Shown here: piece after piece, positions 12,982-40,463 of the stretch
Numbering within the stretch: the first letter of the stretch is position 1
Layout: the number at the start of each line of letters is the position of its first letter
NCBI GenBank assembly: GCA_028753945.1
Contig: JAPNXP010000002.1
Coordinates: forward strand, 13,702,001-13,766,000
Direction of reading: 5' to 3'
Length of the DNA: 64,000 bases
From: Hexactinellida sp. DTS-2022
Taxonomy: Eukaryota; Porifera; Hexactinellida
Translations under genes and position numbers: made by a program
The notes under the pieces: model-generated
Database searches by the model: none
Told to the model about the DNA's origin: nothing
Seen by the model: only the letters and a program-made list of their open reading frames with translations

Positions 12982-14408
12982 ATGTCGGAAGAGACAGCCC
13001 CTGTGGACCCGCTCCAGGGCCCTGAGGACGATTGGTGCTGGAACAGACCTCTCTGGAATCAGCTGTTCCTGAGCCCGTGTGGCGACAGGTGATTCTGCCG
13101 GACCAGCTGCCAGACGGGGCCTGACGGGGATGCTGGGCGTGTGCGGACTAGAGCCCAGCTGCGGGCTGGCGGACGTCAAGCTGAAGACAGCAGGCGGCGC
13201 TGCTTCGGCCCTGCAGCTCGCAGGCGCTGGGGCTGCTGGGGGACGCGCAGCTGGCCAAGTCAGACTCGGAGCCGGCCCGACAGCAGGCGCTCCTGGCGCA
13301 GGCGGAGCTCAGCTTCCGGGCGGCGCTGGAGTGCCTCGGCAAGCCGGCGGACGGGAGAGACCCGCCCGTCGCTCTGCAGAAGCAGGACTGGTGGGAGCAT
13401 CGGAAGCGGGAGGCAGAAGCCGCGAAACAGGCCGCAGTAGCAAAGCCGGCGCAGGCACCCAAGGGCGCAGCCGGACAGGCCAAGCCGGCTGTCGGGAGGG
13501 GACAGGCAGCAGCTGGGAAGACAGGCCCGCCGGCCGGAGTCACTCGCGCCGCACCGAAAGCTGCTCCCAAAACTCCTGCCAAGCCTGCCGGCGCCGCCAA
13601 GCCAGCTGCCGCGCCCACTAGAACAGGAGCCGCTAACAAACAACAACAAGCTGTAAAGCCCGCGAGTAAGACAGTTGCTACTCTGGGTCAGCTCAAGTCC
13701 GCGGAGAGCACAGCAGCGCCGGTTAAGACTCCAGCTAGCTCTGTAGCCACTCAGCCTGCTGAGACAGGCAAGGAGAAGGGAGAAGCTAATAACTCTCCTG
13801 CGACAACCTACTCGTCACCTGTAAACGCGAAAACAAACTTGTCACCTGTAAACGCGAAAACAAACTTGTCACCTGTAAACGCGAAAACAAACTTGTCACC
13901 TGTAAACGCGAAAACAAACTTGTCACCTGTAAACGCGAAAACCTACCATCCCTTCCTGGGGCTGGCCAGAGTGCTGAGCAGACAGAACAACCCGAACACT
14001 CTCCAGGAGGCGAAGAGCCTGTACAGCCAGGCCATAGAGACGTGTCCGGGCCTACACGATGCGTACATAGAGCTGGCGGATATACTCATCGAGAACAGCC
14101 CGCTTGAGGCAGTGGATGTGTACCTTAAGTACCCATTCCCTGAAACGCCCACATTCGATGACGCGTATCTGTACGGGGAGATAGCGCGCATCCTGCTGAG
14201 GGAGGGGCAGTACGATGACGTCAGACTGGTGCCTAACATGGTGCATCTGGGCAAGATAATGGGGATTGGCATGCTGGAGAAATATGTTAAAATCCTAGAG
14301 GATAAGTTCAAGACTAAGGCCGTTATGTAGGTGTACGCGGGAGTGCATGGTAAAGAAGTGGACGATCCCGGCTTGGTGCAGTTCTTCAGATTCAAGTGTT
14401 GGATCTGA
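12982..14408 (+). pseudogene. TPR-like protein gene with frame breaks (pseudogene or draft errors)
   Basis: GC-rich coding sequence starting at ATG 12,982 (MSEETAPVDPLQGPEDDW) and running in three successive frames. The 12,982 frame hits TGA at about 13,090; similar-looking coding sequence resumes in other frames; from about 13,185 one frame stays open to 14,330. The annotated TTG start at 13,839 is therefore not the real start. Order: N-terminal segment, long Ala/Pro/Lys-rich low-complexity linker (about 13,400-13,800), five SPVNAKTNL repeats, then a conserved helical region (starts HPFLGLARVLSRQNNP, contains EAKSLYSQAIETCPGLHDAY and ELADILIE) resembling tetratricopeptide repeats. A TAG at 14,328 is followed in frame by 26 further codons of plausible conserved tail ending at TGA 14,406. 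No intron sites explain the breaks. The family is not named. It is convergent with the glutathione synthetase gene. Confidence 0.6.
13813..13940 (+). repeat. 27-bp coding minisatellite, about 5 copies
   Basis: Period exactly 27 bp, encoding SPVNAKTNL five times, the last merging into SPVNAKTYHPF. Copies are identical at the DNA level, so the expansion is recent and kept the reading frame. It sits at the junction of the low-complexity linker and the TPR-like part. Confidence 0.9.
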
Positions 14409-20838: not shown

Positions 20839-21479
20839 TTTTTAGTGTGCTTCTTCTAGTAAAAAACGTTATAGTAGGGTCCTACTATAGTTTTATACTA
20901 TAAGTGCACACTATTGAATTTACCTCTGTCGGACTTCCGGCCGGTCGGCCGGCCGTACGCGATGGCCTGACTAAACCATTGGAGATAGAGATTTAAAATT
21001 TTGACAAGAGATATAGAATTTCCTGGAGATGTTCACCTCGAAGCCCGATTTCTCAATTTCTCTTTTGTTCGTCAGTTATATCGAAATTTGTATTCTGGTC
21101 CAGTGACTCTTTAATAAATCGAATTGGTTATTGAAAATATAGAGGTTGTATTCTCCTAAGGATGTTCTTTATGTATATGTATCAATTAACATTATTATGT
21201 CGCTAATCACTTATACGTTTTATTAACGGTTTTTTATGTAAATCAGCCATCTCTCCATATTGTAATTACTCTATAGTATACTGAATACTATAGAACATAT
21301 TACATAAGCCGTGACCTTCGTTATATAAGGCCTTATACTACTCCGAACCATGGACTACTTAAAGGCCATTGATTATTAGTTAACATATCTTTATCTCAAT
21401 AGTTAGTAATGACAGACCTGAGAAATGCATTATAATTGTATAGGAAGTTAGGAACATGATATCAAGGCATACATAATAT
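20839..21479. repeat. Dispersed repeat shared with 36.5-36.8 kb
   Basis: TTTTAGTGTGCTTCTTCTAG (about 20,842) and CAGCCATCTCTCCATATTG (about 21,245) recur in the same order at 36,536 and 36,682. A GC palindrome-like patch (CCGGCCGGTCGGCCGGCCG) lies near 20,938. No genes. Confidence 0.6.
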
Positions 21480-21800
21480 TGTAAGATAGGCGCCAGCCTC
21501 CGAGCCCTACGCTCTTGAGCTAGCACCCATCCTACAGGGTATAACATATTGTATGTGTGGTTTCGTCCTATCACAAGGACTCATCAGGAGGGTAACCCTC
21601 GACCACTCGGAACACCCTAGGCCGTAGCCCGCAGGTTCCCAGTTACCACCGTACTGCCGCCCCGCAGTGCCCTCTGACACCAGGCCGTACTGCCGCTATC
21701 TACATACCCCAGTAGACACTCCTGTAGAGTATATAGTATCAGACCGATCCTACCCGGACTGACTGATACTATAACAATAACACCCTTTAGAATTGTGATA
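21480..21800 (-). other. GC-richer segment hosting a ribozyme
   Basis: About 320 bp with a base composition unlike its AT-rich flanks. On the minus strand it runs from a GTCTGATACTATATACTC-type region through repeated GGCAGTACGG segments (two copies, near 21,650 and 21,690) to the hammerhead ribozyme and a TAGCTCAAGAG segment (near 21,513) that fits an RNA polymerase III A-box. No B-box was confirmed. It could be the end of a Penelope-like element, a retrozyme or a SINE; no protein is attached. Confidence 0.5.
21557..21606 (-). ncRNA. Hammerhead ribozyme (type III arrangement)
   Basis: All conserved elements are present in order on the minus strand. Stem III 5' strand GTGGT (21,606-21,602) leads to the cleavage triplet GTC, cut predicted between 21,601 and 21,600. 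Stem I is GAGGG-TTA-CCCTC (21,600-21,588). The core CTGATGA (21,587-21,581) is followed by stem II GTCC/GGAC (21,580-21,577 and 21,568-21,565) with an 8-nt loop. GAA (21,564-21,562) and the stem III 3' strand ACCAC (21,561-21,557) pair perfectly with GTGGT. Hammerheads self-cleave by 2'-OH attack. Such motifs occur in Penelope-like elements, retrozymes and satellite RNAs. Stem III is only 5 bp. Confidence 0.88.
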
Positions 21801-31337: not shown

Positions 31338-31500
31338 CAGTCGAAATCGGGTTTTTTTGCTTATTGGGTTTTTTTTCCTCCTTTTGTCGTGCAAAAATGT
31401 GATATCTTAATGTGTTTTCCATCGGGTTTTTTTGCTTATTGGGTTTTTTTGCCTCCTTTTGTCGTGCATTTTGGGGGGCAAAAAAACCCGATTTCGACTG
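31338..31500. mobile_element. TA-flanked MITE in gypsy (163 bp)
   Basis: Ends CAGTCGAAATCGGG and CCCGATTTCGACTG with TA on both sides. It holds an internal direct repeat of the GGGTTTTTTTGCTTATTGGG segment. Tc1/mariner-pogo type. Confidence 0.85.
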
Positions 31501-31650
31501 TACGATAAGTTTGCGAATAGATGCGATAAATTCAAGACAGGAGATACTGTTTGGTTGAGCATTCCTTATAAAAGTAAACTTCAACCAAGATGGGAAGGTG
31601 GATGGTCAGTAGTGAAGGTGGTATTAAGTAATGTTAACTTACAGATTGTA

Positions 31651-31736
31651 CAGTCGAAATCGGGTTTTTTTACCCCCAAAATGCACGACAAAAGGAGGCA
31701 AAAAACCCAATAAGCAAAAAAACTCGATTTCGACTG
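31651..31736. mobile_element. TA-flanked MITE in gypsy (86 bp)
   Basis: Same termini as 31,338-31,500 and TA flanks, but without the internal duplication. It is the shorter member of the same family, only 150 bp away. Confidence 0.85.
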
Positions 31737-38804: not shown

Positions 38805-40463
38805 CCAAAATTGAAGCCTCTGCCGAAATAATTTCACTTGGGAGGCACTACTACTGTATTTCTCGGTCAATTATCCGATTGGGTCAACCAATTATCCGAT
38901 TCGGGCAACCAATTATCCGATTGGGTCAACCAATTATCCGATTGGGTCAACCAATTATCCGATCGGAATTACTTTTGATTTTCATTGGTTTATCTATTTA
39001 GGATACTGGGTTGATTAGTATAAAACAAAGTAATACGAAATAAATATATTCCTAAATATTCAAATATTCATCATAAATTATGGCTTCCAGTTCATACGAT
39101 GCAGGACAACACTCTGCCACATCATCTACAGTTGCTATTTCACGAGGTGGGAGAGCAATTTCAAATGAATTACGGCAAAGACTTATCGATGCCCATGTGT
39201 CGGGAGTAACCTATAAACAGATGACCAGATTGTTTGGCGTTAAGAAGGATACCGCTTACAGAATTTGTAGCACCAGACAATATTCTACCAAACTTCGCGG
39301 TGGTCCAAGAGGAAAAAAGTTGGACGAGGATTCGAAAAGTCTTCTCTTAATTTCCATTGAAGCCCGTCCCGATATCACTCTTGGCGAGATGAGAAATAAA
39401 CTACTTCTCGAACGAGGGATAACTGTTTCGATATCTACGATCGCTCGGTGTCTTGAAGGATGCTTAATTACAGTACAAAAACTTGAATTACTTCCGAGTG
39501 TACGTAATTCACCCGCAAACAAAGATTGTAGAAGAACTCATGCTCTATGGTTGCAAGAACAGCATGAAATAGGAGCAAGATTCTGTTACGTTGACGAGTG
39601 TGGATTTGGCTTATATACCGCTCGGAATCGTGGTCGATCAATTCAAGGATTGCCAGCTCGAAGGGTTGCTGACAATCAACGAACTCCCCATGTCACTCTG
39701 ATATGTGCTATCTGTCCAGGTGTTGGACTCGTCCATTCAAAGATCCTTTTCGGAGGTGCTAAACAAACACATTTTGATCAATTTATAAGTGAATTATTCC
39801 ATCTCTCGTTTGGTTTGGCATTGGAACCAAGTAGCTCAGTTGACACGGCATTTATCGTACTTGACAACGCTCCTTGTCACCGTGGGATTGAAAATAGACT
39901 TGAAGCTTCTATCCCTTCACACATCGAATTGAAACGCCTCCCTCCATACAGTTGCGAGTTGAATCCGATTGAGTTGTGCTTCCAAAGTCTAAAATCCTAT
40001 ATAAAACGAACTCTCAGCGCTCAAGGACCAATTATACCAATTGAGGGCCAAACTATGGTAAGTGCAAGGAGAGATAAACTATTGCAATTATGCCCAAATG
40101 CTTTGGCTCAAATTACTCCAGCAACTTGCCTGAATTCGTTCTACCATGTATTGACAGCAACAGTTCCGAGAGCAATACGCCTTGAAAATCTCTAGCAGCT
40201 ACATTATTCCAATATATATATCCAATAAATCACTTTATCCTATATTAATTAACTGTATTCATTATCACTATAATATCAAATATATCACTATAATTGTTGA
40301 TTGCTCGAATAGGATAATTGGTTGCCCGAATCGGATAATTGGTTGACCCAATCGGATAATTGGTTGCCCGAATCGGATAATTGACCGAGAAATACAGTAG
40401 TTACCCAACCACCAAAGATAGTGCCTCCTAAGTGAAATGCGTAGGCACAGGCTGCAATTTTGG
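38805..40463 (+). mobile_element. Autonomous IS630/Tc1-type transposon, parent of the hairpin MITEs
   Basis: About 1,659 bp. The right end reversed reads CCAAAATTGCAGCCTGTGCC, identical to the hairpin ends; the left end has two differences. Inside the ~80-bp terminal repeat, each side has a ladder of a 21-bp direct repeat with an AATTATCCGAT core: five copies on the left (38,867-38,962) and four reversed copies on the right (about 40,310-40,382). Iterated subterminal repeats of this kind are usually transposase-binding sites. The enclosed transposase is intact. The flanks do not show the TA duplication typical of Tc1, so the true outer boundary may lie slightly further out. Confidence 0.85.
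39080..40195 (+). CDS. IS630/Tc1-family DDE transposase
   Basis: Intact, 371 codons, ATG at 39,080. Paired-type DNA-binding region first: a helix-turn-helix around residues 27-70 (ELRQRLIDAHVSGVTYKQMT, LFGVKKDTAYRIC) and a second around 90-130 (EARPDITLGEMRNKLL, VSISTIARCLEG). The catalytic DDE domain follows: first Asp in FCYVDECGFGLY, second in FIVLDNAPCHRG, and the final Glu in YSCELNPIE, about 35 residues after the second Asp. Cut-and-paste transposition of its own ends is the expected activity. An open frame in a window full of dead elements suggests recent arrival or activity. Confidence 0.9.
   Translation: MASSSYDAGQHSATSSTVAISRGGRAISNELRQRLIDAHVSGVTYKQMTRLFGVKKDTAYRICSTRQYSTKLRGGPRGKKLDEDSKSLLLISIEARPDITLGEMRNKLLLERGITVSISTIARCLEGCLITVQKLELLPSVRNSPANKDCRRTHALWLQEQHEIGARFCYVDECGFGLYTARNRGRSIQGLPARRVADNQRTPHVTLICAICPGVGLVHSKILFGGAKQTHFDQFISELFHLSFGLALEPSSSVDTAFIVLDNAPCHRGIENRLEASIPSHIELKRLPPYSCELNPIELCFQSLKSYIKRTLSAQGPIIPIEGQTMVSARRDKLLQLCPNALAQITPATCLNSFYHVLTATVPRAIRLENL

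Follow-up and report, generated by a model that had tools for sequence, protein, structure and literature searches.

The window, as we call the whole 64-kb stretch of DNA analysed here, is part of a 112.4-Mb genome assembly of 18 contigs and encodes calcium-binding EGF domains with leucine-rich repeats, an ABCA-type transporter and a eukaryotic glutathione synthase. Profile searches of the genome matched 7 Ets and 16 homeodomain sequences, and Ets domains are, to our knowledge, specific to animals; these matches and the domains in the window point to an animal. Innexin and Wnt models had no genome match, but their controls were silent too, so absence is not implied; with that reservation, the lack of such matches and the small number of homeodomain sequences would suit a sponge, perhaps a glass sponge. 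The segment at 13001-14000 has a GC content of 63%, against about 35% window-wide, with a 27-bp tandem repeat at 13810-13942 and three open frames that match no Pfam family. A 371-residue open frame at 39080-40195 encodes a Tc1/mariner-like transposase (DDE_3), in which a Sleeping Beauty-type helix-turn-helix match fell below cut-off. Between 27873 and 31092 lies a broken Ty3/gypsy copy whose protease, reverse transcriptase, RNase H and integrase pieces are in separate frames. An inverted repeat at 31428-31722, inside the gypsy remains, has two 61-nt arms that are 84% complementary and is perhaps a small inserted foldback element.

The feature that concerns us here lies on the minus strand, where the initial annotation had described a complete hammerhead ribozyme in a GC-richer segment of about 320 bp, taken to be non-coding and with its host left open. 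That segment proved to be the element itself, 300 bp long and indeed non-coding, with the following parts:

21477 to 21776, minus strand: whole element, 300 bp, a single (solo) LTR-like unit, TGTTATAG...CTTACAATA, delimited by its target duplication and by three uninterrupted copies of the host repeat
21777 to 21780, no strand: target site duplication 5' of the element, TTAT on the minus strand, from the empty sites L035, L044 and L056
21609 to 21776, minus strand: putative U3-like part upstream of the hammerhead, placed by comparison with related copies
21732 to 21773, minus strand: terminal hairpin of U3, TATAGTATCAG...CTGATACTATA, read from the letters
21555 to 21608, minus strand: type III hammerhead ribozyme, from Rfam RF00008 (59.1 bits) and covariation
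21547 to 21553, minus strand: TACAATA, first of two copies of a direct repeat of 7 nt, immediately 3' of the hammerhead, from repeat comparison
21477 to 21483, minus strand: TACAATA, second copy of the repeat and 3' end of the element, from repeat comparison
21473 to 21476, no strand: target site duplication 3' of the element, TTAT on the minus strand, from the same three empty sites

The three loci in which the host repeat is uninterrupted differ slightly from one another. At the terminal hairpin of U3, the relative L025 has a different sequence that, read from its letters, retains the pairing. The window copy ends in ...TACAATA instead of ...CA. In 18 of the 38 copies compared, an exact repeat of the 7-nt LTR end follows the hammerhead at a distance of 5-6 nt on its 3' side; shuffling gave a mean of 4.7 such copies and a maximum of 12, a control that overstates independence because the copies are related. 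The repeated 7-mers differ between copies, TACAATA being that of the window copy.

The ribozyme itself is genuine. Rfam model RF00008 (Hammerhead_3) matches 21608-21555 on the minus strand end to end, above its gathering score of 48.5 bits, and this covariance-model check, which the initial annotation had proposed, yielded no other gathering-level match in the 64 kb. The match to the type III model also bears out the type III order that had been read from the letters. The motif has a 5-bp stem I with a UUA loop, a stem II of 4-5 bp, a 5-bp stem III that includes the U-A pair adjoining the core, and both core strands, CUGAUGA and GAA; the predicted cut falls after GGUC on the minus strand, at the base of stem I. 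A type III descriptor found one place in the window, the hammerhead, and none in 400 shuffled strands built from 2-base blocks. The minimum-energy structure of the motif is the hammerhead fold (-17.1 kcal/mol); since its z-score is only -1.84 and 7 of 200 shuffles equalled it, folding energy alone is little proof. Covariation is more telling: in an alignment of 57 of 59 copies (46 of them distinct; two with length changes were excluded), 7 of 17 pairs show two-sided changes, a number reached in none of 500 shuffles (mean 3.5), and slid versions of the structure score worse than the true one. Stem I is nearly invariant across copies and contributes nothing to this count. The suggestion that the motif might be a weak monomer seems doubtful, given its 5-bp stem III and a whole fold that is the predicted minimum-energy structure.

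The hammerhead core recurs throughout the genome. A 27-nt pattern with up to 3 mismatches has 342 genomic matches, the 100 listed all being exact, and the reversed pattern has none. When 68 candidate places were scored with RF00008, 64 exceeded the type III cut-off; the list of 68 is a lower bound, because the window's own copy is absent from it. The type I model, RF00163, had no genome match, and its control was likewise silent, so absence is not implied. The window copy could be aligned to all of the first 30 loci, in most cases over 46-63 nt with 87-98% identity, and much longer alignments occur only in L025 (130 nt, 83%) and at a second place in L028 (105 nt, 78%), as if the ribozyme were kept while the rest of the element drifts. 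For closer comparison we used 59 copies distinct by 270 nt of context, identical ones elsewhere being dropped (for example L029, which has its own TTAT duplication). Forty-six of the 59 are intact in the sense that both CUGAUGA and GAAAC are present and stem III has 4 bp or more in addition to the core pair, a proportion biased upward because the copies were mostly chosen for a good hammerhead match. Stems I and II and the cleavage triplet did not enter this count, so that the plus-strand copy of L055, whose triplet is changed, is among the 46. Equal-scoring hammerhead copies cluster at 13.00-13.91 Mb of G000:C1 (L039, L040); at the two loci the candidate ends are identical and the open frames similar, so that a local segmental duplication is likely.

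The relatives reveal what kind of element carries the ribozyme. Four near-identical copies, L027 to L030, define its boundaries as TGTGACGAG...CTCATAACA, 325 bp, and are flanked on both sides by AGTA, GCAT, TTAT and TTAG, respectively. Relatives have TGT...ACA ends, with the hammerhead between U3 and U5. An automatic search for TG..CA ends with any 4-bp flank match was rejected, as 1,359 of 2,000 random places also gave candidates, and we used fixed end motifs with a shuffled-pairing control in its place. Both motifs are present in 35 of the 59 copies, the other 24 having no recognised end on one or both sides; by these motifs, L008 and both hammerheads of L041 (3978-5013) have no recognised LTR 3' end. 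Sixteen of the two-ended copies are units of composites or of the partial L052, and 19 are single. Among the single copies, 10 have identical 4-bp flanks, 2 match at 3 of 4 positions and 7 lack a duplication, compared with a mean of 0.8 and a maximum of 5 perfect matches in 10,000 shuffled pairings of flanks. The ten units with perfect duplications measure 231-330 bp. The host that had been left open is an LTR-type element with a 4-bp target duplication.

In seven of nine composites that we tested, the duplication lies outside the whole array; L050 and L053 have none, and the incomplete sequences L052 and L055 were left out. L032, within an array that also holds inverted copies, is an LTR of 325 bp, an internal segment of 161 bp and a second LTR of 325 bp, with LTRs that are 99.7% identical, a type III hammerhead in each, and a polypurine tract, AAAGGGAAGGTGA, directly followed by TG. 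A permissive Rfam search of the L032 unit returned the hammerheads and a microRNA-family match on a palindromic stretch, which we took as chance since it was far under the cut-off. L033 and L037 are two insertions of one 684-bp dimer (period 385, 98.1% identity), each with its own duplication, CTAC and ATAG, and in both the upstream unit lacks a normal U5. L031 consists of two 237-bp units, 238 bp apart and 98.3% identical, with GA as their junction. The tract before the downstream LTR ends in GTGA/TG in L032, L033, L052 and L054 and in GTTGA/TG in L037 (slashes mark LTR boundaries). L050 (4400-5500) is a tail-to-tail composite with arms from different subfamilies.

Ends of this kind could also be marks of a transposase. 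The inverted-repeat-like termini, TGTnA...TnACA, together with 4-bp duplications and the many copies that are single units, would suit a cut-and-paste DNA element, that is, a MITE with a chance hammerhead moved by an integrase-like transposase such as Ginger. This reading nevertheless appears improbable to us, because three features indicate an RNA stage: the LTR-internal-LTR copies, the polypurine tract of a type common to gypsy elements directly before the 3' unit, and the hammerhead kept through compensatory changes.

The initial annotation had pointed to the spacing of other copies as a check, and their hammerheads are 238 (L031), 385 (L033/L037) and 486 nt (L032) apart, outside the range of about 600-800 nt in LTR retrozymes. 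These values come close to the 170-400 nt given for animal retrozymes (PMC7229834; this and the other papers cited are represented by parts of their texts), as would be expected of a non-LTR retrozyme or Penelope-linked repeat like those already published. We consider that origin very unlikely: the hammerhead is type III rather than type I, LTR features and a polypurine tract are present, and the duplications are of 4 bp, compared with larger ones in animal retrozymes (PMC7229834). The annotation's suggestion of a Penelope-like host, which would be expected to carry a minimal type I hammerhead in tandem terminal repeats, is likewise not supported, given the LTR-type ends, the 4-bp duplications and the type III class of 64 of the 68 scored places. 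Nor is a dimer-dependent motif supported for these type III copies, as both Penelope-like and dimer-dependent hammerheads are type I in the available parts of PMC7229834 and PMC7761336.

The polypurine tract leads to the gypsy elements of the genome. One of these, located on C10 and called C10 here for short, was chosen for its long open frame (1,440 residues) before its ends were known, and is the only gypsy element that we sampled at both ends. It has two identical 166-bp LTRs, flanks of CTAG and CTAA, and a tract and LTR start, GGAGGGAGGTGA/TGTCATGG, resembling the retrozyme box. After the 5' LTR, C10 reads ...GTCACA/TAAGTAC and the retrozyme copy L052 reads ...GTAACA/TAAGTAC, with TAAGTAC equal. 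A 17-nt pattern for the tract and LTR start, RRRRRRGTGATGTBAYR, which was built after both the retrozyme junctions and C10 had been seen, has 70 genomic matches, and its reverse has 12. For 26 of these 70, a gypsy integrase core (150 listed cores of 706 candidates) lies 781-880 bp upstream on the same strand; between 300 and 2500 bp, the distances tested, no match precedes a core on its own strand and none is on the opposite strand. Shifted positions gave a mean of 0.15 and a maximum of 2. Many gypsy elements of the genome thus carry the GTGA/TGT box. Four of the 70 matches fall at hammerhead copies among the 100 listed, and the remaining 40 are unplaced. In the window the tract/LTR-start motif has no match, and the broken gypsy copy at 27.9-31.1 kb therefore lacks a boundary that could be compared. 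Two loci bring the two kinds of sequence together. In L054 (1-1300), as read from its letters, gypsy pol-like sequence runs into the internal segment of a retrozyme, together with the latter's tract and LTR start, possibly as a template-switch chimera, and one L041 hammerhead copy lies directly after a gypsy RNase H piece.

We think it very probable that the family is an animal LTR retrozyme mobilised by Ty3/gypsy, possibly primed by a hairpin. A retrozyme had been among the hosts proposed for the window copy, and the proposal holds in its plant LTR form, not in the animal type I kind. From sequence features we infer cleavage, RNA circles and transposition, in a cycle where an LTR-internal-LTR copy would be transcribed, the two hammerheads of the transcript would cut out an RNA of 240-490 nt, and this RNA would be circularised, reverse-transcribed and integrated by gypsy enzymes. 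That the copies are instead genomic relics of an infectious viroid-like or delta-like RNA is the least likely reading of all: the type III class does occur in viroid-like and some delta-like RNAs (PMC7936874), but the core is dispersed in hundreds of copies, many of those examined have LTR-type ends and target duplications, gypsy boxes are present, and an exact search of viral contigs with the 26-nt core gave no match. Prokaryote genomes, searched for exact copies of the hammerhead core, had none either.

How an animal LTR retrozyme of this kind might be primed is suggested by what follows its 5' LTR. By eye, no copy has a tRNA-Met or other obvious tRNA primer site there; a hairpin stands at the expected position, starting from the final 7 nt of the LTR and returning to their complement. 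All 14 of its pairs are formed in 8 of 8 sequences, and 7 show two-sided changes, which none of 500 shuffles equalled. The outer 7 pairs were selected, because hairpins were sought by requiring that the 7-nt LTR end recur as its reverse complement no more than 120 nt away (that of L052 was read directly from its letters); the inner pairs have two-sided changes in 4 of 7. In L038, L051 and L053 the outer pairs are trivial, the LTR itself returning inverted. For 32 U5 segments, RNAalifold predicted a hairpin in which a few pairs change on both sides, to which we give no weight.

Seven composites are tail-to-tail palindromes. Five of them (L032, L038, L051, L053 and L055) turn exactly at the primer-site hairpin, and in those of L035 and L050 an arm is separated from the hairpin by other sequence. 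Within 700 bp of one another, the first 100 listed hammerheads form 8 same-strand, 3 tail-to-tail and no head-to-head neighbour pairs; a few of these pairs represent independent insertions, for example the pair in L036 and the plus and minus elements of L037. The palindromes may be snapback cDNA primed at the hairpin. In C10, the primer site has a 12-nt exact complement in the element's own LTR (at most 10 nt in 2,000 shuffled primer sites), which matches the layout of self-priming Tf1/sushi elements. In four retrozyme copies the best complement, of 8-12 nt, is in the hairpin arm just downstream, against at most 7 nt in the LTR. We therefore put forward, as a tentative proposal that may well prove wrong, that reverse transcription is primed by the element's own hairpin: the arm downstream of the LTR end would fold back onto the nucleotides that directly follow the LTR and prime copying of U5 in cis, and the tail-to-tail palindromic dimers would be integrated snapback products. 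Such priming would, if true, amount to Tf1-like self-priming, as suggested for the genome's own gypsy, in a cis form adapted to a template without a free 5' end. The integrated palindromes and asymmetric dimers may record cDNA synthesis, and because the genome holds them, the priming of a ribozyme-bearing retroelement becomes testable.

Known retrozymes fall on two sides of this family. In the open-licence literature, as far as the available portions of these papers go, plants are the described source of LTR retrozymes with type III hammerheads, and the retrozymes of animals are given as type I and without LTRs. The plant elements carry the hammerhead within LTRs of about 330 bp, have 4-bp duplications and many solo LTRs, are non-coding, and combine a Ty3/gypsy-like polypurine tract and LTR start with a tRNA-Met primer site (Cervera, Urbina and de la Pena 2016, PMC4918200); their hammerheads are type III (PMC7229834). 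The present family is like them in its hammerhead-bearing LTRs, 4-bp duplications, solo LTRs, lack of coding capacity, gypsy-like tract and LTR start and type III class. It differs in that its host is an animal, the unit between hammerheads is 238-486 nt rather than about 700, no tRNA-Met primer site was seen by eye and a hairpin occupies its position, and palindromic dimers and a co-varying 7-nt repeat are present. Metazoan non-LTR retrozymes are likewise small, non-coding, animal, hammerhead-bearing and sometimes tandem, but they are described as type I (PMC7229834, PMC7761336), without LTR, PBS or PPT and with larger target duplications (Cervera and de la Pena 2020, PMC7229834), unlike the type III hammerhead and LTR features found here.

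Type III hammerheads are not altogether foreign to animals. Hammerheads in eukaryotic repeats are overwhelmingly type I (PMC3088659), and type III ones with longer helices are reported from some dipteran and termite genomes and from delta-like RNAs (PMC7936874). Our family shares with these, and with insect elements carrying type III hammerheads that PMC7761336 mentions as in preparation, the occurrence of type III in animals. The hammerheads of PMC7936874 differ in their longer helices I and II and a loop pseudoknot, and the available part of that text describes no LTR element. The insect elements may bear on the novelty of an animal LTR retrozyme; among the open-licence literature matches listed, we found no LTR retrozyme in an animal, which is not proof of its absence from print.

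Animal TRIMs offer a further parallel as tiny non-autonomous LTR elements (bivalves, PMC6934838; Echinococcus, PMC4558846). Those of bivalves have no clear primer site and an internal part that can form a hairpin, and a term search of the available PMC6934838 text returned no mention of a ribozyme or hammerhead, in contrast to the family described here. Tf1/sushi LTR retrotransposons self-prime (PMC6317226), and they resemble C10 in its 12-nt complement between primer site and LTR more than the retrozyme copies, in which the best complement lies in the downstream hairpin arm. A plant-type family in an animal, with gypsy boxes in the same genome, means either that such a design has evolved repeatedly or that it is ancient or was acquired by transfer.
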